The translations under genes and the position numbers were made by a program. Below, piece by piece: positions 459 through 25,619 of a stretch of DNA of 37,141 nucleotides. The stretch spans positions 1 through 37,141 of the forward strand of contig JAJYUA010000033.1 of NCBI GenBank assembly GCA_021792755.1, in the 5' to 3' direction. A model generated the notes under the pieces. That model was not told the origin of the DNA and did no database searches. It worked only from the letters and a program-made list of their open reading frames with translations. Position 1 is the first letter of the stretch, and the number at the start of each line of letters is the position of its first letter. The DNA is from Pseudomonadota bacterium (GTDB taxonomy: Bacteria > Pseudomonadota > Gammaproteobacteria > Steroidobacterales > Steroidobacteraceae).

Positions 459-3248
459 CTAGGCTCCAGGCTGACTGCCGCCCCGTCTGCCGAGCCAGCT
501 CGCTGCATCGTAAGCGGTCAGCTCCCTGCTGATCCTGTAGCCCTGCAAGTATTCCATGCCAGACTCGATCGCCTTGCACTCTCTTGCCTCTGTATCGATC
601 TGACAGGCAACGATCGGCACTTTCAAAACCCTTCCCATCTGATGGACGATCGCTATGAGCGCGTCACTTCTGGTGCTGTCCCTCGCCGGCTCGAAGAACG
701 CGCCCGCCAATTTGAACTGATTGATCTTAACCTCACCGAGTCGATTCAACGGCACCAATCCCTGACCAAAATGATCAATGTTCACCAACACTCCGAGCGT
801 CGAGAGCGCCGCTATCTTGGCAGATACCCGCGAAAACTCAGACTGAAGAACGGCCTCATCCAGATCAAAACGCAGCCACTCGAGACTCATATCAAACTCC
901 CGCGATATCGTGCTGAGCAGGCTGCAAAGATCGAGGCTCAAGAATTGTTTGGACGCGAGATTCAGGCTGACCGGCACCAGCGGAAGCGCCCCGCGAAGCC
1001 ATGACCTGCATTGCTGGACCACCTGCCGAATTCCCCAGTGCGCGAACTGCGCAAGCAGTTGGCATTGTTCGATCGCCGGCAGGAAGTCGCGCGCCGAAAT
1101 TTGACCTTTCTCGGGATGCGCCCAGCGGGCAAAGCACTCAATGGATTGCAGCGCTCTTGTCTTCGAGTTAACGATGGGCTGATACACCATCGACATGCCT
1201 TCATTCTGCATCGCGTCAAGCAGCGACTGGCGGACCGACTGCCGCTGCTCACTCTCTGACAACATGTCGTTCGTGAAAGACTTGAAGGTGTTGCGACCGG
1301 AATTCTTTGCGCGGTACAGCGCAAGATCCGCGCCCTCCAGCAACTCGCCGCGTTCGATGGCGTGGTCCGGACACATTGATACGCCGATGCTCACGCCAAC
1401 CTCGACGCTGTGCTGCTGAATCCGAAATGGGCGGCGAATATCCCGAATGATTCGCTCCGCAGTACGGTCCGCATCCTCGGGCGTTTCCAGGTCATAAGCA
1501 ACGATACCGAATTCATCACCTCCCAGTCGGGCGACCGTGTCACGGGCACGCACCAGGCTGCGCAGCCGGCTCCCTACCTGAATCAGCAGTTCGTCACCGA
1601 CCGCATGACCCAGCGTGTCATTGATCGCCTTGAATTTGTCGAGGTCCAGCATGAACACGGCGGCCTGCGTGTTGCCATTGAGGGCCAGCCGTATGGCCTC
1701 GCTCAACGATCTGTCGAACATGGCTCGGTTAGCCAAACCGGTCAGCGGATCGCGCAGTGCCATATCCTCGAGCTGTTCCTTCTCTAGATATTCAATCAGC
1801 AGTTCGCGCGCATGTCCGGCCGACTCGACCTCGGCCTCATCCCAGGGTTCGGCGGAGCCCTTCACCGTCTCGGTCCAGGCTTGAAAGGACGCACGCGGCG
1901 TCAATTGGGGGAGTTCCTCCCCAGAATCCGCCTGGCTCTGAGGTCTACCGGCCCACCGCACGTTCTCGATTTGCTCGCGCCGTAGCAGCAATAGATAGTC
2001 TTGTCCGTTCAATGGCATGTATAGGCTACCGCTGGCGAACCGGACCAGCGCCGGGTACGTGGCGAGGAGCGGGCTCACCATGTTGCGTGCCGCGATTTCC
2101 GATTTATCGAGGGTTTCCAGGGAATTGGTGAGGGCGCTCAGGCTAATCTCATCGGGAATGCTGCCACTGTGAAAGTTCTGGTTGTCAAGGTGAGCGAAAA
2201 TACCATCGGCTCGATAAACTTTGGCGATCTGGCCGAGTTGTGACACCAGCGCGCGCTTGTCGCTGCCTTGTGCGCGCAAGGCACCCAGAATCCCGGCAAA
2301 GCTCTCGCGAAGAGCGGAACGGGATTGTTCAAGCCGAAGTGTCACCATGTCGGTCATGTGCAGGGCAGCGGTCCTCGAGAGTTCCTCGCACAGTTGCCGT
2401 TGGTTTAGGCTCAGTGATCTAGGCGCGAGATGGTGACAGGCTACCAGACCCCAGAGTTTTCCAGCCACGATGATCGACACGCTGAACGAAGCTTCAACTC
2501 CGAGGTTTCTCAGGTATTGAATGTGAACCGGATGAACCGCGCGGAATTGAGAGAAGGACAGGTCGAGCGCCGGGCAGTCGGGCGCGCTGATCACTGCGAC
2601 TGTGTCAGCGTGTACATCGGCGATGACCCTCTGCCAATTGAGCAGATAGAGGCGGCGCGCATTGGCCGGAATGTCCGTGGCCGGAAATCGCAGTCCAAGA
2701 TAGCCCTGTATGCCGGGCTTGAGGCGCTCGGCGATTACCTCACCATGCCAATCTTCCCGAAACTTGTAGAGCATCACGCGGTCGTAGCCGGTAATGTCCG
2801 CCATCGCCTCCATAATCCGCGCGGCGGCATGCTCGGCGGTGTCGGCCTGCGACAATCCGCGCAGATAGCTGACTCGATCGGCCAAAAGGTGCTGGCGGCC
2901 TTCGGGTCGCCACGCTTCGATCTCGGCGAATGCCACTTCGCCGGCAGCATATGTGGCGACCAGCAGTGAGCGGCCAGCCCATTCTGCTCTTTGAATTCGG
3001 GGCAGCTGTATATCTGGCGTATCCGCGGGCACGAACATATTGCCTAACTGGTCCGCGCGAAACAGCACGTCCCAGTGCCGCCCCAAAAGCTCCGCCGGGC
3101 CCTTCCCGGTAAATTCCGCGATATTGGCTGAACATGCACAAATCAGCTGCGTGCGCTTGTCGAAGGCGATCAGACTGCCCATCGCCTGCAGTTGATCGCC
3201 GCGCGAAAGATCGGCGGCCTTGCAGTCGCCAAAGGGAGCATTCGTCAT
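459..3248 (-). CDS. bphP: Bacteriophytochrome with GGDEF and degenerate EAL domains
   Basis: 929-residue red/far-red photoreceptor that should bind biliverdin and control c-di-GMP. Order: PAS (about 10-110) with candidate bilin-binding Cys9; GAF (130-300) with the PATDIP motif (189-194, Asp192), His242 and the CHH motif (271-273); PHY (300-470) with the tongue motif PRASF; GGDEF (490-655), with an intact GGDEF at 576-580 and an inhibitory site RxxD at 567-570. The EAL domain (675-925) is degenerate: EAL reads ECF (704-706), the ELTE motif reads DLDE, DDFG reads DHFG (825-828), KID reads KIN (841-843) and EGVE reads CQID. I infer a light-regulated diguanylate cyclase with a non-catalytic, possibly regulatory EAL. 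There is no histidine kinase module. I chose the ATG at 3248; a TTG two codons earlier is possible. It follows bphO after a 199-bp gap on the same strand. Confidence 0.93.
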   Translation of the reverse strand: MTNAPFGDCKAADLSRGDQLQAMGSLIAFDKRTQLICACSANIAEFTGKGPAELLGRHWDVLFRADQLGNMFVPADTPDIQLPRIQRAEWAGRSLLVATYAAGEVAFAEIEAWRPEGRQHLLADRVSYLRGLSQADTAEHAAARIMEAMADITGYDRVMLYKFREDWHGEVIAERLKPGIQGYLGLRFPATDIPANARRLYLLNWQRVIADVHADTVAVISAPDCPALDLSFSQFRAVHPVHIQYLRNLGVEASFSVSIIVAGKLWGLVACHHLAPRSLSLNQRQLCEELSRTAALHMTDMVTLRLEQSRSALRESFAGILGALRAQGSDKRALVSQLGQIAKVYRADGIFAHLDNQNFHSGSIPDEISLSALTNSLETLDKSEIAARNMVSPLLATYPALVRFASGSLYMPLNGQDYLLLLRREQIENVRWAGRPQSQADSGEELPQLTPRASFQAWTETVKGSAEPWDEAEVESAGHARELLIEYLEKEQLEDMALRDPLTGLANRAMFDRSLSEAIRLALNGNTQAAVFMLDLDKFKAINDTLGHAVGDELLIQVGSRLRSLVRARDTVARLGGDEFGIVAYDLETPEDADRTAERIIRDIRRPFRIQQHSVEVGVSIGVSMCPDHAIERGELLEGADLALYRAKNSGRNTFKSFTNDMLSESEQRQSVRQSLLDAMQNEGMSMVYQPIVNSKTRALQSIECFARWAHPEKGQISARDFLPAIEQCQLLAQFAHWGIRQVVQQCRSWLRGALPLVPVSLNLASKQFLSLDLCSLLSTISREFDMSLEWLRFDLDEAVLQSEFSRVSAKIAALSTLGVLVNIDHFGQGLVPLNRLGEVKINQFKLAGAFFEPARDSTRSDALIAIVHQMGRVLKVPIVACQIDTEARECKAIESGMEYLQGYRISRELTAYDAASWLGRRGGSQPGA

Positions 3249-3447
3249 GTTCAAGGTCCAGTAGTAATACGATAGAACGCAACCTCAGTATACGTGCGGC
3301 CGCGGGTCGTTATGAGAGCGAGTAACTCCGCCCGGCGTCTGTATGGGGAAGTACATCATGCAAAATGAAGCGCGAACACCTCGCTTCCAATCCTCACCGG
3401 TCAGTCACCGCAGCGGAGCGATCATGCCGACCACCGAAAGCTTCAGT

Positions 3448-4071
3448 TTACGGGTACGCGGCAGAACAGATGTCCGCGATCCGCTCGAAGCAACGGATCG
3501 CGGAACGTACGACCACTTCGGCTTGTCCAGGCGCGAGGATCAGGGCGTTCAGGTGCGCAGTGAACCCCTCCCAATGCCGCTGCGTATCGCCGCCGTAGCA
3601 GCCGATGGATGAGAGTTGCCCCTCGGGTATGCCCAGGCATTGCGCAAAGCTGCGCTTGAGCACAAGGCCGCCGCGCTGCGAGCCCTCCAGCACGTAGAGC
3701 GGGCCGATCAGACAGAGCGGATCGTCGCTCTCCGTGACGAGTTCATCGGCATAATCAAGCGCCTGTCGCAGTGCGGCCGGCACGCTCGGACGCCGTGGCG
3801 CCTCCAGGTGTTCGAGATCGCGTTCAAGCAGTGGCACTTTCGGCAGGTAGCCTCCGAGCAGCGTCTCTAATGACGGACTCCCTGAATCGGCGCAGCGTTG
3901 TTCGAACGCCCCATGAATGATGGCCAGAGCGTGTAGATAGCTGAGCGTGCTCGGTGTCGGCAGACGCGCAGCCCGCAGGGCTTCGAAGAACGGCAAATGC
4001 TCGAGCCATCTGTGGGCACTCGCCGTTTCGACTTTAAGTCGCTCGCTCAAGGTGGGCGAAGGAATTTCCAT
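3448..4071 (-). CDS. bphO: Heme oxygenase making biliverdin for the phytochrome
   Basis: 207-residue BphO-type heme oxygenase, which opens heme to biliverdin IXalpha, the chromophore of the phytochrome encoded next. The N-terminus has the family pattern L-x-x-x-T-x-x-x-H with His20 as likely proximal heme ligand, and residues 126-131 read YVLEGS followed by GG, the distal-helix signature. Length fits the family. Pairing with bphP is a common arrangement. The ATG lies three bases after the stop codon of the truncated integrase, with no convincing ribosome binding site there, so translation may be coupled to the integrase remnant, or the true start may be the TTG seven codons further in (LSERLK). 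No promoter was recognised between integrase and bphO. Confidence 0.9.
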   Translation of the reverse strand: MEIPSPTLSERLKVETASAHRWLEHLPFFEALRAARLPTPSTLSYLHALAIIHGAFEQRCADSGSPSLETLLGGYLPKVPLLERDLEHLEAPRRPSVPAALRQALDYADELVTESDDPLCLIGPLYVLEGSQRGGLVLKRSFAQCLGIPEGQLSSIGCYGGDTQRHWEGFTAHLNALILAPGQAEVVVRSAIRCFERIADICSAAYP

Positions 4072-17301: not shown

Positions 17302-20300
17302 ATGAAGCTCAGGATTCTCGCGGGCGCGCTGTGCGCTGTGTGCTCCTTCGCGCTCGCCTCGCACCAGGCGCGTGCCCGCAGCGGCCCCGTCCAGGCGCTG
17401 ATCCGATTTCCGAGCATCCACGGCGACACCGTCGTGTTCGAAGCCGGCGGCTCGGTATGGAAGGTCGGCGTGCGCGGTGGGGAGGCCGTGCGTCTCACGG
17501 CGAGCTCCGGCTACGCCTCACATCCGCTGATTTCCCCCAATGGCCGGTGGGTCGCTTTCACCGGCTGGTATCGTGGCAACACCGACGTCTACGTCGTGTC
17601 GATCGACGGCGGACCGGTCAAGCAGCTCACTTGGCGCTCGATCAATCAGCCGACGAACGGCGGGATCGGAACGGTGACCGACAACATCGTCGCCGGCTGG
17701 ACCCCGAACAGCCGCGACGTCATCTTCCTGTCGCGCCGCGAAAGCTTCAATCCCCAGATCGAGCGCGCGTTCGAAGTACCGATCACGGGTGGCCTGCCCG
17801 TCGCGCTGCCCATGCCGTGGACCGGGCCGCTGTCGCTCAACCCCCGCGGCACCGTCGTCGCCTACGACAAGCTCTCCCGCGTCCTGCTGCTGCGCTCGTT
17901 CCGCCGCAAGCACTACTACGGCGGCATGGCCGAGGATATCTTTACCTACAATCTCGCCACCGGCGCCAGCCGCCGCTTGACCCACTGGAAGGGATCGGAC
18001 ATCTTCCCGATGTGGGTGGGTGACACGCTTTATTTCGCCTCCGACCGGGGCGCCGGCGGCGTGCTCAATATCTGGGCGAAGAATCTCGGCACGGGGGCGC
18101 TGCGCCAGGTGACGCACTTCCCGGTCTACGACGTCGATTGGCCGAGCGCCGGCAACACCGGCATCGCCATCTCCGACGGCGGCAGGCTCTACGTGTATTC
18201 CTTTGCGACACACAACGTGACGCAGGTGCCGGTCACGGTGCCGCTCACCGGCTCGCACACGCTGCCGTACGAGTACGCGGCAGCGAAGATGATCCGCGCA
18301 GTGGACGTCGCTCCGGACGGCAAGCTCGCGGTCTTCAGCGCGCGCGGCGCGCTGTTCACCGTGCCGGTCAAGTACGGCCATACCACCGACCTCAGCACTC
18401 GCGCCGCGAGCAACGACAAGGATCCGGCCTGGTCGCCGAACGGCAAGTGGATCGCGTACATCCGCGACGACGGCCGGGACAGTCAGGTCATGGTGCGCGC
18501 CGCCGACGGCAGCGGGGCCCCGCGGGCGTTGACGCCCGAAGGCGATCTCACCTACATGGGACGGCTGCTGTTCAGCCCGGACAGCCGGTGGTTGACCTAC
18601 AGCACCTCGCTGCAGCAATTGTGGCTGGTTGACGTCAAAACGGGCGTGCGCAAACTGGTGATCAGAGCGCCGCGCTCGGCCCCCGTTCACATATTCCAGG
18701 ATGTGGCGTTCTCGCCGGACAGCCGCTGGCTCGCCTTCTCCAAGCGCCTGGCGAACAATCTTCACGCGCTGTTCGTTTACGGCATCGACGACGGCGATCT
18801 GCATCAGATCAGCCGCGGCGATTTCGATGACGACAATCCGGTCTTCTCGCACGACGGCAAGTATCTGTTTTTCGTGTCCGCCCGCCTGGTCAACCCGGCG
18901 ATGTCGACATTCGGCTTCGGCGCCTCCAGCGTGGTCCCCGATGGCCTCTACGTGACCACGCTGCAGTCCACCACGCCCTCGCCGTTCGCGCCGCGCAGCC
19001 GGCAGCCGACGGCCTCGCACAGCCCCAAGGCGGGCAAGGGCAAGCCCAAGCACAACAAGGGCGGGAAGAAAGGCAAGTCGAAGGGCACCGGCAAACCGAG
19101 GCCGCCACGCGTCAAGATCGACTTTGCCGGGCTCATCGACCGCACCGTCCAGGTGCCGGTGCCCGCCGCGAACATCTCGAGCGTCGCCGAATTCAACGGC
19201 GTGGTGTACTACTCCACCGTACCCATCCCTACGATCGGCGGTACGATTCCGGGACAGGCGCCGCAATTGCGGGCCTACGACCTGAAAGAGCGCAAGGCAC
19301 TGACACTCGCGACAGGCATCGGCTCGAGCTTCGCGTTGTCGGCCGACGGCTCGACGCTCCTTTACAAGCAGCAAGGCAGGTGGACGCTGCGGCCCGCGAC
19401 ATTCGCCGCACAGGCCAAGACGAGGACGCTCGACACCTCGCACATGCAGATGCTGGTGGATCCGCGCGCCGAATGGAACGAGATCTTCAATGAAGCCTGG
19501 CGCAACGTGCGCGACTATTTCGTCAATCCGCAGCTGATCAAGGAGAAATGGGCGGCACTCGGCAAACGCTATCAGGCGCTGCTGCCGCTGGTACAGGACA
19601 GGGAGGATCTCAATTACGTCATCGGCAACATGATCGGCTCGCTGGGCGAGAGCCACATGTACATCATGGGCGGCGCCATGGGCTGGAAAACCCCGCCGCA
19701 GCCGACCGCGGGCCTGGGCGTGGAATTCGCGCTGAACGGCGCGGCGCGACGCTACTACCTGAAGCGCATCTTTCACGGCAACAATACCGTTCCGGGCTAT
19801 TACGCACCGCTCGCGCAGCCGGGCCTGAAGGTCAAGACCGGCGACTACGTTCTCGCGATCAACGGCAAGCCGCTCAAGGCCCCGACCAACCCCTATTCGC
19901 TCCTGCAGGGCACGCTGGGGCAGACCATAGCGCTGCGAATCGCCGCCACGCCGACCGGCAAGCCGTGGACCATACTGGTCAGGCCCGTCGTCAACAGCGG
20001 CAAGCTCCACCTGCTGCATTGGATCAACGGCAATCGGCGCGAGGTCGACAAGCTCTCCGGCGGCAAGATCGGCTATGTGTATCTGAACGACATGGAAGCG
20101 ACCGGCCTGCACGAATTCGTGCGCCAATTCTACGGCCAGATCACCAAGCCCGGGCTGATCATCGACGACCGCTGGAACCTCGGCGGCTTCATCGACACGA
20201 TCCTCTTCGACCGCCTCACCAAGAAGATGGTGGCCGGGTGGGTGAGGCGTGACGGCGTGCCGCAGCAGAGCCCGAGCGACGCCTATATCGGTCACCTCGC

Positions 20301-20718
20301 GGCGTTGATCAATCACGGCTCGGCCTCCGACGGAGACATCTTCGCCTACCGCTTCCAGAAGTATCATCTCGGTCCCACCATCGGCTCGCGCACCTGGGGC
20401 GGGGTTCGCGGCTATGACAACGTGTTCACGCTTCTCGATGGCGGAACGCAGGTCGTCTCTGAGGTCGCGATGTACGGAACGGACTCGAAGTGGGTCGTCG
20501 AGAACATCGGTGTCGTGCCCTCGATTCCGGTGCACGTGAACCCGGGACTGCTGGCCCGGCACCATGTCGATACGCAGATCGAGACCGCGGTGCGCGTGCT
20601 GCTGAAGCAGATCGCGCGCCATCCCGTGGCCGTGCCCCCGCCACCGCCGTGGATGCCGGCGTTCCCGAAGCAGCCGACCTATCCGCCCTGTCCGGTGAGC
20701 CACGGCACCTGCCAGTAG
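17302..20718 (+). CDS. Secreted tricorn protease homologue (S41 family)
   Basis: 1138 residues. A signal peptide (1-26, ending ARA) sends it to the periplasm or outside. Two WD40/PD40-type beta-propellers fill about 30-660 (repeats such as HPLISPNGRWVAFTG, PAWSPNGKWIAYI and VAFSPDSRWLAFS). Then come the C1 helical domain (about 725-790), PDZ (800-905) and S41 core (930-1085). Compared with archaeal tricorn, Ser784-His785 match the Ser/His pair, Ser1009 in GSASDGD the nucleophile, Asp1010 the specificity residue and Glu1067 in ENIGVVP the last tetrad member, so it should be active. A Lys/Gly-rich insert (about 575-605) is unusual. Tricorn enzymes trim oligopeptides. It diverges from the sigma/FecR/receptor/ggt set, fitting peptide breakdown. 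Confidence 0.93.
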   Translation: MKLRILAGALCAVCSFALASHQARARSGPVQALIRFPSIHGDTVVFEAGGSVWKVGVRGGEAVRLTASSGYASHPLISPNGRWVAFTGWYRGNTDVYVVSIDGGPVKQLTWRSINQPTNGGIGTVTDNIVAGWTPNSRDVIFLSRRESFNPQIERAFEVPITGGLPVALPMPWTGPLSLNPRGTVVAYDKLSRVLLLRSFRRKHYYGGMAEDIFTYNLATGASRRLTHWKGSDIFPMWVGDTLYFASDRGAGGVLNIWAKNLGTGALRQVTHFPVYDVDWPSAGNTGIAISDGGRLYVYSFATHNVTQVPVTVPLTGSHTLPYEYAAAKMIRAVDVAPDGKLAVFSARGALFTVPVKYGHTTDLSTRAASNDKDPAWSPNGKWIAYIRDDGRDSQVMVRAADGSGAPRALTPEGDLTYMGRLLFSPDSRWLTYSTSLQQLWLVDVKTGVRKLVIRAPRSAPVHIFQDVAFSPDSRWLAFSKRLANNLHALFVYGIDDGDLHQISRGDFDDDNPVFSHDGKYLFFVSARLVNPAMSTFGFGASSVVPDGLYVTTLQSTTPSPFAPRSRQPTASHSPKAGKGKPKHNKGGKKGKSKGTGKPRPPRVKIDFAGLIDRTVQVPVPAANISSVAEFNGVVYYSTVPIPTIGGTIPGQAPQLRAYDLKERKALTLATGIGSSFALSADGSTLLYKQQGRWTLRPATFAAQAKTRTLDTSHMQMLVDPRAEWNEIFNEAWRNVRDYFVNPQLIKEKWAALGKRYQALLPLVQDREDLNYVIGNMIGSLGESHMYIMGGAMGWKTPPQPTAGLGVEFALNGAARRYYLKRIFHGNNTVPGYYAPLAQPGLKVKTGDYVLAINGKPLKAPTNPYSLLQGTLGQTIALRIAATPTGKPWTILVRPVVNSGKLHLLHWINGNRREVDKLSGGKIGYVYLNDMEATGLHEFVRQFYGQITKPGLIIDDRWNLGGFIDTILFDRLTKKMVAGWVRRDGVPQQSPSDAYIGHLAALINHGSASDGDIFAYRFQKYHLGPTIGSRTWGGVRGYDNVFTLLDGGTQVVSEVAMYGTDSKWVVENIGVVPSIPVHVNPGLLARHHVDTQIETAVRVLLKQIARHPVAVPPPPPWMPAFPKQPTYPPCPVSHGTCQ

Positions 20719-20865: not shown

Positions 20866-21468
20866 ATGGAGAAGGTATTCATTTCCGCCGGCGAGCTGCT
20901 GCGGGACTCACTCGAGCTTGCCCGGCGTGTCGTTGTGAGCGGCATGCGCCCGAGTTTCCTCGTGGCCATGTGGCGCGGCGGCGCACCGATCGGCATCACG
21001 GTGCAGGAAGTGCTCGAGTACCACTCCATTCACGCCGACCACATCGCGATCCGCACCTCCTCCTACGAGGGCATCGACCGGCAGCACCGGACCGTGAGGG
21101 TGCATGCCACCGACTACCTGGTGTCGCGTCTCTCGGCCGAGGACGAGCTGCTGATCGTCGATGACGTGTTTGACTCCGGCCGCAGCCTCGAGGCGGTCAT
21201 CGAGGAGCTGAGGCGGCGCTGCCGGCGCAATCTGCCGCAGAAGATCCGCATCGCCACCGTGTACTACAAGCCCGGGCGGCGGCGCAGCGTCCTCGTGCCC
21301 GACGTCTTCGTGCACCAGACTTCCGACTGGCTGGTCTTTCCGCACGAGATCCAGGGACTGACGCGCGAGGAGATCCTGACACACAAACCCGTCGGAACGA
21401 ACTTCCTCGATCCTCTTCCTCCCGAGGCGCCCGCCGCGCCCGGGACAGCGGGCGCGCGCAGCAAATGA
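20866..21468 (+). CDS. Phosphoribosyltransferase, purine-salvage type
   Basis: 200 residues, type I phosphoribosyltransferase fold. The PRPP-binding motif LLIVDDVFDSGRSLEAV lies at about 92-108, and a preceding hood region has FLVAMWRGGAPIGI. HPRT/XGPRT-like proteins transfer phosphoribose from PRPP to purine bases such as hypoxanthine or guanine; the TSDWLVFPHEIQ stretch near residue 150 is typical of this branch. The last ~20 residues are a Pro/Ala-rich tail. It stands alone on the plus strand, 147 bp after the protease. The exact base is not decidable by eye. Confidence 0.82.
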   Translation: MEKVFISAGELLRDSLELARRVVVSGMRPSFLVAMWRGGAPIGITVQEVLEYHSIHADHIAIRTSSYEGIDRQHRTVRVHATDYLVSRLSAEDELLIVDDVFDSGRSLEAVIEELRRRCRRNLPQKIRIATVYYKPGRRRSVLVPDVFVHQTSDWLVFPHEIQGLTREEILTHKPVGTNFLDPLPPEAPAAPGTAGARSK

Positions 21469-21980
21469 AGCGGTGAGCGCGCACCAGGGGCGCAAGAGGC
21501 GGATCGGCGCGCTTGCGCCCCGCACCCATGGGCAGCCCTCCCCACCCGCCCTTGCCGAAGTGCCCCCGATCGGTCGCGAGCAGACCGGCCGCCATCGGCC
21601 CGGCACTCGGGCGCGGCGCACGTTCCGCCGTGGCGCGCCCGGGCGCAAGGCGGCAGGGTCGGTCTGCGCCCCTCGGGCCGGCGGTGCGCGGACAATGGCA
21701 TAATTGTGCGATACGGGTCACGATAGGCCTGCGCCCGGTGTCGGGGCGGGTGCGGGGGCCCGCGCTGGCGAGTGGTAAACATGATACCGGGCGCACAATC
21801 CTGGGGTACGCGACGTGGCAGTCTTTCGTGGTGAATGATCTGTCGGTGCTGCCGTGACGTAAATGCCGATGACCGCGAACTTTTCCGGTACCGCCGCTGC
21901 GTGCGCCGAGCCGATGTCCCGTGGGCGGATACGCGGCGGCGAGGCCGACCACCGCCGGGCCCCGCCCGAAAAGAATCGTC
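21469..21980 (+). other. 512-bp gap before the hemerythrin/globin sensor gene
   Basis: Short open frames here have no family features. A CATAAT (21699-21704) within the inverted repeat ACAAT-N6-ATTGT (21692-21707) could be a -10 region for the downstream gene, but no -35 matches. No terminator hairpin with a T run is seen after the phosphoribosyltransferase. Confidence 0.4.
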
Positions 21981-24900
21981 ATGCCTGATTCGGTGCGACC
22001 GCTGCTGTGGACCGAGGCCATGGCGACGGGCATCGCCATGGTCGATGAGCAGCACCAGCGCCTGCTTGAGATCTTCAATCGCCTGGCGCTCGCCCAGGCA
22101 GAGGATGCCGCGCGCGAGACCGTGCTCGCGAGCCTCGATGAACTGCTCGACTACACCCACTACCACTTCCGCGAGGAGGAGCTGCTCATCTGCCATTCGC
22201 GGCTCGACTCCCGGCACCGGGCGATGCATCTGCAGGCCCATGAGAGCTTCTGCGAATTCCTGCGACAAGCTCGGGCATTCACCGCGGAGCAAGCGCCGGA
22301 GATATCCGTCGAGCTGTTGGCGTTTCTCGCGCAATGGCTGCTGCACCACATCATGGAGGTCGACAGGCAGATGGCGCGCAACGTGCATTCGCTGCGCACC
22401 GGCGAGGCGCCGGGCGATGCCGCGCCCGACCCCGGGCGTGACACCAGGGACGACGTCGCACAAACCATAAGCCAGCTCACCGATCACCTGGGAAAGCGGA
22501 CGTTCGCCCTGCTCGGGCAGCGCCAGCAGCTCATGAACCTGCAGGCCCTGTACCGGGCGCTGCTGCATTGCGCCGACGTGCTGATTCATAGCCGCGAAGA
22601 ACAGGAAATGCTCGACAGCCTCTGCACCAAGCTGGTGCGCGGCACCATGTTCAACACCGCGTGGATCGTCAAGCCCGGACAAACGAACGTATGCGACGTG
22701 CTGGCGCTTGCCGGCGAGGGCGCGGACCAGGCGCGCATTGCATCGCCGGAATTGACGGCTCAGGAAAGCGCATCCGTCATCGTCAAGGCGTGGAACAGGC
22801 AACAGGCGGTCGTCTGCAACGATACCCTGACCGATCCGGCGTTGCGGCCGTGGCACGCAGACTTCGCCGGGCATCGCTGGCGCAGTATGCTCGCCATTCC
22901 CGTCATGCGGGCTGGCCAGACGTGGGCGGTCCTGGCACTGGCCTCGCCGCTGCGCGGCTGCTTCGATGACCCCACGGTCGAGGTGTGCTCACGGATCGTG
23001 GCTCTGCTCGGGCATGGAATCGATGAGCTCGATGCCAAGAGCCGCGTCCAGGCGCGGCAGCTGCAGGAAGCGCAGATAGCGCGCACCGACATGCTCACCG
23101 GACTGCCGAACCGGCTGGCACTCAAGGAGTACCTGCCGCAAGCGATCGCCCGGGCCCGCCGCCGCGGCACCTCACTGGCGGTGGGCGTGATCGATCTAGA
23201 CGATTTCAAGCCCGTCAATGACCAGCTGGGGCACGAAGCCGGAGACAAGCTGCTGCAGTGCATTTCGCGCGGCCTGCTCGAGTGGATGAGAGTCTCCGAC
23301 TTCATTGCTCGCCTGGGGGGAGATGAGTTCGTGGTGGTCCTGGAGGACCTCGAGCCGACCCAGGCCGCGCCCCAGCTCGGGGCAGCACTGCAGCATCTGC
23401 ACAGGGCGGTGGAGGGAACCTTCCAGTTGAGCGTTGGAAAAACCGTGTCCATCGACATGACCATGGGCGTGGCCCTGTATCCGGCGGACGGACACGAGCC
23501 GGAGCTGCTGCTTCGCCAGGCCGACGCGGCGATGTACCAGGCCAAGCAGACCAAGAGGGAACGAGCGCAGTGGTGGCGGCTCGGCGCGGCCGCCGCGCCC
23601 GAGCAGCTCGCGGAAATATCGTTCGACGCCTTCGGTCCGGAGGCGCGGGACTCCATGAGGCGGCTGGCGCCGCATCTGCAGGCGGTGTCGGACAAGTTCT
23701 CGGCGGCGTTCTATCGGGAATTGCGCTCGCACCCCGAGACCTCCTCGGTCCTCGCCTGCCTCACCGCGGCGGAGTTTCAGGCGCTCACGCGCAACCAGGC
23801 CGGCCATCTGCGCTTTCTGCTCGATGCTCCAACCACGGAGGAGACGCTCGCGCGGACCGCTGAGCGGGTGGGCACGGTCCACGCCCTCGTCGGCGTCTCG
23901 GGTGCATGGATGACCAGGGCCACGGGAATGTATCGCGACTTGTTGCGCGCCCATCTCGACGCGGCGCTGCTCACCGCACGCACACGCTACCGCACTTTGC
24001 GCGCCGCCGACACCAGGCTGCAATTGGACATCGAGATTCAGCTGCAAGCCATGCAATCGGTTCTCGACCGGTACCAGATGCTGCTTGCGCGCCCGATGGG
24101 CAGCGGGACCTCGCCGGCGGATTGGACTCAGACCGAGCTGGCCGCGCTGGCGGCACTCCCGGGCATGCGCTTCGCTGTGCTGATCCGTCCGGACGTGCAA
24201 AACCGCCTGATCATCGAGCGGGCGGCCGGTGAAGGCTCGGATGCGTTCATCGAGGCGCATCGCGCGCGCGATCTTTACCCGGCGCTCGACCCCAGGGACG
24301 TGCGCGGCCGCGGCCTGGCGGCGCGCACCTGGATGACCGACTCGCAGCAGGAGACGGCCGCCTTCTGGCTCGACGGTCGCTCGCAGCCCTGGCAGGCGTT
24401 GATGCAGGAGTTCGGCATACGCAGCGCGGTGACGTTGCCCGTCCATCGGCACAATGCCATCCATGCCGTGCTGATGCTCTTTGGCGAGTACCCGCACCAG
24501 TTCGCCTGCGGCTGGATGCGCACCTGGCGCCTGTCGCTGCAGAACCGCTGGAATCTGATGACGGTGATGTCGCACGGCAGCTGGCATGCGATCGACTCCG
24601 GCCAGGCTGCGCAGATCCGCTCGCTCCTCTACGGCGGCGGCGTCGAGATGTTCGTGCAGCCGGTCGTCAACCTCGCGGATGGCGCGCTGGTGAAGGTCGA
24701 GGCGCTGGCGCGGCTGCGCACGCCCGAGGGCGCCATCCTGACTCCGCCGAAGTTCCTGCCGGCTCTCGGAGAAACCGACCTCGACTCGCTCTTCCGCCAG
24801 TGCCTGGCGCAGGGGCTGGATCATTTGCGCCGCTGGCGCGACGGGAAGCTCGACATCCGGCTGTCGATCAATCTCGCCCCGAGCTCTCTGGTGCACCCGG

Positions 24901-25619
24901 ACTGCGCGCGCTGGATCGAAGAGGCGCTGCGCGAGGCGCAGATAGCCCCGCAGCACCTGACCCTGGAGCTGCTGGAGAGCCAGGCGTTGGAGGCGGGCAA
25001 GGTCGATGAGGCCATCACCCGTGTGGCTTCGATGGGCGTGAAAATCGCCCTGGATGACCTCGGAGCGGGATTCAGCAACCTCAAGCGCCTCGCGGAGCTT
25101 CCCTTCGATGTGATCAAGATAGACCAGAACATCATCAAGGATCTCGCCTGCGATCCGATCAAGGCGCTGTGCCTCATCCGGACCGTCGTGCAGATCGGCC
25201 ATGATCTGGAGCGCGAAGTGGTGGCCGAGGGCTTGGAGAATGACGGGGTCATCGAGGCGGCAAGACAGCTGGGCTGCCGTTACGGACAGGGCTACGGGCT
25301 GGCGCAGCCGATGCCGGCGGCGGCTCTCGCGGACTGGGTCGAGGCGCGACCGTTTCGCGACAGCCGCAGAAACGGCCTGCGCAGCTGGATCGGGGCTCTC
25401 GCCTACAAGTGGATGGTGATGCACGATGCGCTCAGCCTGCGTCTTCCGGGCGAGCTGCAATCCTGTCCGCTCACCGAGTTCTTCACGGCGCAGGCGATAC
25501 ACGATCCGCAGATACTGCAGTGGCATCGGCAGATCCATGAAGATCCGGCCGAATCGGCGCGCCTGCAGGCCATGCGGCACATGCTGCACTGGATGACGCT
25601 CAAGGCGCGGGAAACGTGA
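21981..25619 (+). CDS. Hemerythrin-GAF-GGDEF-globin-GAF-EAL oxygen/c-di-GMP sensor
   Basis: 1212 residues, no membrane segments. Bacteriohemerythrin (10-135) with ligand positions in HQRL, YHFREEE, HRAMH, HESF and HHIMEVD; GAF (190-345); GGDEF (365-525), with GGDEF at 446-450 and an intact RxxD inhibitory site at 437-440; globin-coupled-sensor-type globin (545-705), with proximal His634 in VGTVHALVG and distal Tyr578; a probable second GAF (715-850); EAL (880-1125) with all main residues kept (EAL 907-909, Asn964, Glu996, Asp1025/1026, Lys1046, Glu1083, Gln1103); and an unknown helical tail (1130-1212). It can be expected to make and break c-di-GMP under two different O2-binding cofactors, di-iron and heme. 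The ATG at 21981 begins the conserved part. It has no obvious operon partners. Confidence 0.9.
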   Translation: MPDSVRPLLWTEAMATGIAMVDEQHQRLLEIFNRLALAQAEDAARETVLASLDELLDYTHYHFREEELLICHSRLDSRHRAMHLQAHESFCEFLRQARAFTAEQAPEISVELLAFLAQWLLHHIMEVDRQMARNVHSLRTGEAPGDAAPDPGRDTRDDVAQTISQLTDHLGKRTFALLGQRQQLMNLQALYRALLHCADVLIHSREEQEMLDSLCTKLVRGTMFNTAWIVKPGQTNVCDVLALAGEGADQARIASPELTAQESASVIVKAWNRQQAVVCNDTLTDPALRPWHADFAGHRWRSMLAIPVMRAGQTWAVLALASPLRGCFDDPTVEVCSRIVALLGHGIDELDAKSRVQARQLQEAQIARTDMLTGLPNRLALKEYLPQAIARARRRGTSLAVGVIDLDDFKPVNDQLGHEAGDKLLQCISRGLLEWMRVSDFIARLGGDEFVVVLEDLEPTQAAPQLGAALQHLHRAVEGTFQLSVGKTVSIDMTMGVALYPADGHEPELLLRQADAAMYQAKQTKRERAQWWRLGAAAAPEQLAEISFDAFGPEARDSMRRLAPHLQAVSDKFSAAFYRELRSHPETSSVLACLTAAEFQALTRNQAGHLRFLLDAPTTEETLARTAERVGTVHALVGVSGAWMTRATGMYRDLLRAHLDAALLTARTRYRTLRAADTRLQLDIEIQLQAMQSVLDRYQMLLARPMGSGTSPADWTQTELAALAALPGMRFAVLIRPDVQNRLIIERAAGEGSDAFIEAHRARDLYPALDPRDVRGRGLAARTWMTDSQQETAAFWLDGRSQPWQALMQEFGIRSAVTLPVHRHNAIHAVLMLFGEYPHQFACGWMRTWRLSLQNRWNLMTVMSHGSWHAIDSGQAAQIRSLLYGGGVEMFVQPVVNLADGALVKVEALARLRTPEGAILTPPKFLPALGETDLDSLFRQCLAQGLDHLRRWRDGKLDIRLSINLAPSSLVHPDCARWIEEALREAQIAPQHLTLELLESQALEAGKVDEAITRVASMGVKIALDDLGAGFSNLKRLAELPFDVIKIDQNIIKDLACDPIKALCLIRTVVQIGHDLEREVVAEGLENDGVIEAARQLGCRYGQGYGLAQPMPAAALADWVEARPFRDSRRNGLRSWIGALAYKWMVMHDALSLRLPGELQSCPLTEFFTAQAIHDPQILQWHRQIHEDPAESARLQAMRHMLHWMTLKARET

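Follow-up and report, generated by a model that had tools for sequence, protein, structure and literature searches.

Why should a single bacterial protein combine two different oxygen-binding sensor domains with both a cyclase and a phosphodiesterase for cyclic dimeric guanosine monophosphate (c-di-GMP)? The question is raised by a gene on the forward strand of contig JAJYUA010000033.1 (assembly GCA_021792755.1), from a member of the Steroidobacteraceae; the whole 37,141-nucleotide stretch analyzed is referred to here as the window. The open reading frame (ORF) runs from an ATG at 21981 to a stop codon ending at 25619 and encodes 1212 amino acids, in agreement with the first-pass annotation. 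An alternative upstream start, the GTG at 21921, is used by database entry P0001 (1232 amino acids), but the nearest relative, P0002, starts at the ATG position. By hmmscan, matches above the curated Pfam cut-offs were obtained for EAL (189.8 bits), GGDEF (144.6), GAF_2 (70.1, in two stretches), Protoglobin (50.5) and Hemerythrin (47.5), and Pfam together with AlphaFold2 models gives the domain order hemerythrin-GAF-GGDEF-globin-GAF-EAL-C-terminal domain. The first-pass claims that hemerythrin, globin, GGDEF and EAL lie in one chain, with hemerythrin ahead of GGDEF and globin between GGDEF and EAL, were thus borne out; Pfam places the sensors at residues 16-131 and 550-694, where 10-135 and 545-705 had been proposed. 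That account named the four domains correctly but did not have the two GAF domains, the gene's paralogues or the helical C-terminal domain that carries C1162, H1182 and H1186. The presence of two O2/redox-type sensor domains and both c-di-GMP enzymes in one chain is supported at the sequence level. Each part is already known and no new domain is claimed; the novelty lies in how the parts are paired and ordered. The features of the gene are as follows.

21981..25619 (including stop), + strand: full protein, hemerythrin-GAF-GGDEF-globin-GAF-EAL-C-terminal domain, 1212 amino acids (ORF, Pfam, residues)
22026..22373, + strand: bacteriohemerythrin domain, residues 16-131, presumed ligands H25, H62, E66, H79, H83, H123 and D128 (Pfam, NCBIfam, phmmer)
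22431..22589, + strand: long predicted helix, residues 151-203, linking hemerythrin and GAF domain 1 (AlphaFold2), perhaps a coiled coil
22593..23021, + strand: GAF domain 1, residues 205-347 (Pfam and AlphaFold2)
23082..23564, + strand: GGDEF domain, residues 368-528, with GGDEF motif 446-450 and I-site R437xxD440 (Pfam, residues)
23622..24065, + strand: protoglobin, a globin-coupled-sensor globin (Pfam residues 550-694), with Y578 and H634 (Pfam, profile alignment; all-helical in the model)
24123..24560, + strand: GAF domain 2, about residues 715-860 (second GAF_2 stretch; alpha/beta in the model; a GAF match at the corresponding place in relative L042)
24615..25310, + strand: EAL phosphodiesterase domain, residues 879-1110, with a complete presumed catalytic set (Pfam, residues)
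25338..25616, + strand: helical C-terminal domain, residues 1120-1212, with conserved C1162/H1182/H1186, possibly CZB-like (family conservation, model)

The hemerythrin assignment is supported by NCBIfam bact_hemeryth NF033749 (87.8 versus a cut-off of 84) and TIGR02481 (85.9 versus 51.75) as well as by Pfam (47.5 versus 25.3), and a phmmer search with the domain retrieved bacteriohemerythrin 4xpx (1.9e-9) and DcrH 2avk (2.5e-9). The residues that we take to be the di-iron ligands, five His, one Glu and one Asp, are all present. Relatives were compared in a family list of 129 proteins; the main database search gave 588 matches, of which 120 are among the matches listed. An architecture survey of the kind suggested at first pass found the Hemerythrin model in 64 of the 129 and both Hemerythrin and Protoglobin in 59 (P0001, the window's own cluster, included). 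With that cluster counted, the seven hemerythrin ligands are complete in 58 of the 64 hemerythrin-bearing members. The six misses are P0008 and P0086, which start after H25, P0013 (H25N), P0043 (H83R), and P0056 and P0057 (both H79Q). The window's own genome also has a separate small hemerythrin-like ORF, covered by two matches that overlap in a single frame (L007/L008, G000:C22:64127-64534, - strand).

The globin scores 50.5 against a Protoglobin cut-off of 25. When its single sequence was searched against the PDB, no globin was found and the matches were chance-like. A profile of 12 family sequences retrieved Tlr1989 8h17 (1.3e-4), HemAT 1or4 (0.0046) and 2w31 (0.014), the last presumably of GsGCS type, in a listing of 10 rows up to E 1 whose weakest rows are chance-like. 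In the profile alignment, His634 falls on the His of 8h17, 1or4 and 2w31, and Tyr578 aligns with the FY of HemAT. All 64 hemerythrin-bearing members have the proximal His634, as do 64 of the 65 other relatives listed; the distal Tyr578 occurs in 59 of the 64 and in 56 of the 65. Loss of the globin in P0051, P0052 and P0059, suggested by their Pfam lists, was rejected: the protoglobin match is below threshold in P0051 (0.0049) and P0052 (0.003), P0059 has none at E<=1, and the proximal His is present in all three. Globin-coupled sensors typically place the globin at the N-terminus, before the transmitter, and the globin of DcpG is N-terminal. The window globin departs from this rule, being internal and following a GGDEF domain; in L042, a standalone relative, the globin lies near the N-terminus.

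Both enzyme sites of the window copy are canonical in sequence. The cyclase site combines the GGDEF motif, the predicted metal and guanine residues and the I-site. The EAL domain has the metal, base and ligand residues that we take to be catalytic (E907, L909, R911, N964, E996, D1025, D1026, K1046, E1083, E1086 and Q1103). Across the family, the EAL set is complete in all 61 hemerythrin-bearing members covered at these positions (P0050, P0055 and P0128 lack some of them). The GGDEF motif occurs in 52 of 64 hemerythrin-bearing members and in 62 of 63 covered relatives without hemerythrin; by a stricter cyclase set, 45 of the 64 are canonical and 19 non-canonical. The genome itself holds three copies of the gene (contigs C54, C47 and C24), the other two being 71-72% identical to the window's, and only the window copy combines the canonical cyclase set with the I-site. 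In paralogue C47 the motif is DGDEF, whereas C24 combines K410A with a glycine in place of the I-site arginine; both keep hemerythrin, globin and EAL. The first-pass statement that each domain keeps its key residues therefore holds for all listed sites of the window copy, but not for the cyclase sites of the two paralogues. Elsewhere, both copies are non-canonical in genome G014 and both canonical in G006 and in G042; this copy-by-copy comparison comprises 19 rows, with 8 extra loci taken by a crude ORF pick and L027, L032, L037, L038 and L039 without a row. Variants such as SGDEF are active in some enzymes, so that a non-canonical cyclase site is not equal to a dead one. In the members compared, the phosphodiesterase site is intact wherever it is covered, and the cyclase site varies among paralogues. 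A further GGDEF match (L044, G000:C47:5-352) lies at the contig end, about 1.4 kb from the C47 paralogue and on the same strand.

How were these parts brought together? L042, from the same genus, has the architecture globin-GAF-EAL, and L048 and L050 are hemerythrin-GAF-GGDEF-EAL proteins with no globin match. Trees were built with FastTree, which gave long-branch warnings, from 127 rows: 130 minus the duplicates or fragments P0001, P0050, P0053, P0055, P0084, P0108 and P0128, plus C47, C24, L048 and L050. The hemerythrin label changes five times on the GAF1+GGDEF+EAL tree and seven times on the globin+GAF2+EAL tree; these changes may count losses as well as gains, and may be inflated by P0048 and P0049, which are listed as lacking hemerythrin but are cut inside that domain and may be truncated. 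By its GAF1+GGDEF part, P0086 pairs with L048 (tree value 100), L050 falling outside this pair. By its globin+GAF2+EAL part, it groups with four rows that lack hemerythrin, the nearest being P0103 and P0107 (98). P0086 is a single cluster, from a contig of 6.8 kb, and a chimeric assembly is possible there. Relatives of each module occur apart, and P0086 is closest to different proteins in its two halves; both observations support an origin from two fused modules, hemerythrin-GAF-GGDEF and globin-GAF-EAL. We take the pattern to mean that two ready-made modules were joined repeatedly, at the border between GGDEF and globin, and such modularity would favor one sensor per enzyme.

As to how the protein might work, we tentatively prefer, at somewhat less than an even chance, a soluble c-di-GMP switch made of two fused sensor-enzyme modules whose sensors would act in the same way on the messenger. 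By sequence, the first module consists of hemerythrin, the long helix, GAF and GGDEF, and the second of globin, GAF, EAL and the C-terminal domain with its conserved Cys/His. Judging from characterized relatives, at low O2 the diferrous hemerythrin would keep the cyclase on and the ligand-free globin would keep the phosphodiesterase off, so that c-di-GMP would rise; with O2, the oxidized hemerythrin would lower the cyclase, the O2-bound globin would raise the phosphodiesterase, and c-di-GMP would fall. Sensors acting in the same direction would limit futile cycling. The relatives concerned are Bhr-DGC of V. cholerae, 10 times as active in the diferrous as in the diferric form according to the available text of PMC9388753; the protoglobin phosphodiesterase Chp1, given as O2(+) in the accessible part of PMC8846402; and DcpG, whose Fe(II)-O2 form is phosphodiesterase-active and whose NO (nitric oxide) form is cyclase-active in what is available of PMC10882959. 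Taken with the module order, their polarity suggests that air should lower c-di-GMP through both arms.

Several points weigh against this switch. Hemerythrin ligands are complete in 17 of the 19 members with non-canonical cyclase sites, so the cyclase is probably not the only target of hemerythrin; this persistence argues for an influence on EAL as well, perhaps via the GGDEF dimer. The first-pass proposal of one sensor per enzyme accordingly gains from the separate occurrence of module relatives and the differing kin of the P0086 halves, and loses from this persistence of ligands. In the one characterized hemerythrin phosphodiesterase, Ferrovum Bhr-HD-GYP, activity belongs to the reduced form (available text of PMC9388753), so that a hemerythrin controlling EAL could have the reverse effect. 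The O2-bound protoglobin of DgcO raises a cyclase (accessible part of PMC8846402), and the window globin comes directly after a GGDEF; in DcpG, one globin drives both enzymes with different gases (available text of PMC10882959). Moreover, the globin-less L048 and L050 carry EAL too, and hemerythrin never occurs with GGDEF alone in the set. A bolder reading, which we consider less likely than not but a real possibility, is that the single chain is a complete two-input, two-output O2 switch: a di-iron redox sensor would throttle c-di-GMP synthesis and a reversible haem sensor would drive its degradation, the enzymes being affected in opposite ways and the messenger in the same way, and bacteria would have assembled this pairing more than once from ready-made hemerythrin-GAF-GGDEF and globin-GAF-EAL modules.

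The best-surviving alternative is a single output: both sensors would act on EAL, and GGDEF would be mainly a GTP-binding, dimerizing relay with cyclase activity sometimes retained. We regard it as a serious possibility, if a less probable one, and the persistence of hemerythrin ligands beside altered cyclase sites keeps it close. It would account for the contrast between an EAL set complete in 61 of 61 covered members and a cyclase set non-canonical in 19 of 64, as well as for the 19 altered members, which spread over more than one clade of the GAF1+GGDEF+EAL tree and keep His634 in all 19 cases and the EAL set in 18 of the 18 that are fully covered. The two paralogues of the window gene and the two G014 copies fit it too. 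Hemerythrin ligands are complete in 41 of the 45 canonical-cyclase members and in 17 of the 19 others, which gives no hint that changes in the cyclase site accompany changes in the ligands. What speaks for a working cyclase is the canonical set of the window copy and of 45 of 64 members, the doubly canonical genomes G006 and G042, the motif retained in 62 of 63 covered hemerythrin-less relatives, and the ratio of nonsynonymous to synonymous substitution rates (dN/dS). Against the closest orthologue, L025 (85%), GGDEF has the lowest dN/dS, 0.09, followed by EAL 0.10, GAF2 0.11, hemerythrin 0.17, linker 0.24, globin 0.24, GAF1 0.30 and C-terminal domain 0.31; these eight segments, ranging from 0.09 to 0.31, come from one pair only.

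A second alternative is that the two sensors read unlike signals, hemerythrin following cytosolic redox or iron and the globin NO or carbon monoxide (CO). DcpG does tell O2 from NO (available text of PMC10882959), and 5 of 64 hemerythrin-bearing members and 9 of 65 others lack the distal Tyr578. The window protein, however, has both Tyr578 and His634, and the four protoglobin entries DgcO, Chp1, BpeGReg and AvGReg are listed as O2(+) in the accessible part of PMC8846402, so we consider this explanation improbable. An assembly chimera or a decaying, functionless fusion, which the metagenome-assembled sources and one same-genus copy split across two frames (G026) might suggest, is very hard to reconcile with three copies in the genome itself, matches in 17 of 57 other same-genus genomes, an occurrence in several distinct assemblies, reading frames that stay open, and dN/dS values far below 1.

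Among known systems, the E. coli pair DgcO/PdeO also goes by the names DosC/DosP. It resembles the window protein in that an O2-controlled cyclase and phosphodiesterase work jointly (accessible part of PMC8846402), and differs in being two proteins, with the globin on one and a haem PAS on the other. V. cholerae Bhr-DGC likewise has hemerythrin N-terminal of GGDEF, but only these two domains, and no globin or EAL, are named in the available text of PMC9388753. From the same text, Ferrovum Bhr-HD-GYP, whose source is an iron oxidizer, shares a hemerythrin on a c-di-GMP phosphodiesterase, whereas HD-GYP replaces EAL and globin and GGDEF are not named. DcpG of Paenibacillus dendritiformis joins a globin-coupled sensor to GGDEF and EAL and has a phosphodiesterase-active O2 form, with hemerythrin not mentioned in the available part of PMC10882959. 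Acidithiobacillus proteins of similar layout, annotated as Protoglobin-GGDEF-EAL-CZB, share globin, GGDEF and EAL and end in a zinc domain, but are known from domain annotation alone, and hemerythrin is not listed in the accessible text of PMC6416229. In the family itself, P0065, P0107 and P0110 (Ferrovum, Thiomonas and Acidihalobacter) have the core GAF-GGDEF-globin-GAF-EAL at 37-45% identity over aligned columns, without hemerythrin; the protoglobin of P0107, at 24.4, is just below the Pfam cut-off of 25. In the literature covered, which mostly excludes subscription journals and was available in part, no protein described as carrying both hemerythrin and globin was found. A 2022 review states, in its available text, that an EAL phosphodiesterase with hemerythrin had not yet been discovered (PMC9388753), and a 2008 survey counted one hemerythrin-GGDEF-EAL combination in silico. 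By the review's account, the window protein would be a hemerythrin-EAL phosphodiesterase, a type not seen before. With di-iron and haem sensors and both enzymes in one chain, redox/O2 integration and the avoidance of futile cycling become directly testable, and relatives with modules apart, joined or cyclase-altered are ready natural variants.

In the C-terminal domain, C1162/H1182/H1186 occur together in 61 of 61 hemerythrin-bearing members and 56 of 63 others. The Pfam CZB model PF13682 matches one of 14 family tails, at 0.004, and has no match in the genome itself at E<=10. Using hhalign against ten true CZB domains, the Cys aligned on Cys and HxxxH on HxxxH, with E 0.0093 and a probability of only 4.4%; a globin-alignment control gave 0.33. 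CZB ligands are a Cys and three His, and the candidate for the first His is a Lys in the window protein; H1143 is a His in 12 of 61 hemerythrin-bearing members. A profile of the domain found nothing in the PDB at E<=10. At best, the domain may be called CZB-like, with a third metal site possible.

The AlphaFold2 model of residues 1-545 starts with a bundle of helices, followed by a helix of 53 residues, GAF and GGDEF (predicted local distance difference test, pLDDT, 86.6; predicted template modeling score, pTM, 0.64). In the model of residues 531-1212, a globin-like region made up wholly of helices is followed by a GAF-like alpha/beta domain, by EAL and by a helical C-terminal part (pLDDT 87.7; pTM 0.54). 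With pTM values of 0.64 and 0.54, the mutual arrangement of the domains is not to be trusted. Whole-model fold searches led from the C-terminal half to EAL chains and from the N-terminal half to GGDEF-bearing chains, which has no bearing on the globin, second GAF, C-terminal or hemerythrin folds. A membrane receptor was considered and set aside, since the best 19-residue mean hydropathy is only 1.34, making a membrane segment unlikely.

Of 98 other relatives searched, 57 belong to the same genus, and 17 of these have a match beginning at residue <=4, as none of the remaining 41 does; these same-genus matches and the copies within the genome itself disfavor an assembly artefact. Wider sampling at 1e-60 gave matches in 13 of the 369 genomes drawn from the class, among them the window's own, and in 1 of the 398 drawn from the phylum, again the window's own; these figures score at most two candidates per genome and are no measure of rarity. 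Among the best 5000 plasmid records, none covers 80% of the query. The both-sensor architecture comes from metagenome-assembled genomes titled Proteobacteria or Gammaproteobacteria bacterium, the partial entry P0050 being named Steroidobacteraceae. Relatives without hemerythrin come from Ferrovum, Thiomonas, Acidihalobacter and a mine drainage metagenome, and these source names make an acid, iron-rich habitat plausible for the window organism. Its genome encodes two COX1-family oxidases and one cytochrome bd, with 14 EAL and 21 GGDEF matches. The same-genus copy L041 (G026:C62) appears as two matches in different frames, covering residues 2-951 and 909-1211.

Upstream of the gene lie a Tricorn-like protein gene (17302-20718, + strand; PD40 repeats, Tricorn C1 and PDZ, peptidase S41) and a phosphoribosyltransferase gene (20866-21468), and both also lie next to the closest orthologue, in L009. 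Of the 17 loci compared, L009 alone has these neighbors; the two paralogues from the window's genome are counted among the 17, as are some contigs that duplicate others from the same genome. Several loci have little flank, so gene context yields no function. At 459-4071 (- strand) of the window, a PAS-GAF-PHY-GGDEF-EAL bacteriophytochrome adjoins a heme oxygenase gene, which places a likely light-linked c-di-GMP enzyme on the same contig.

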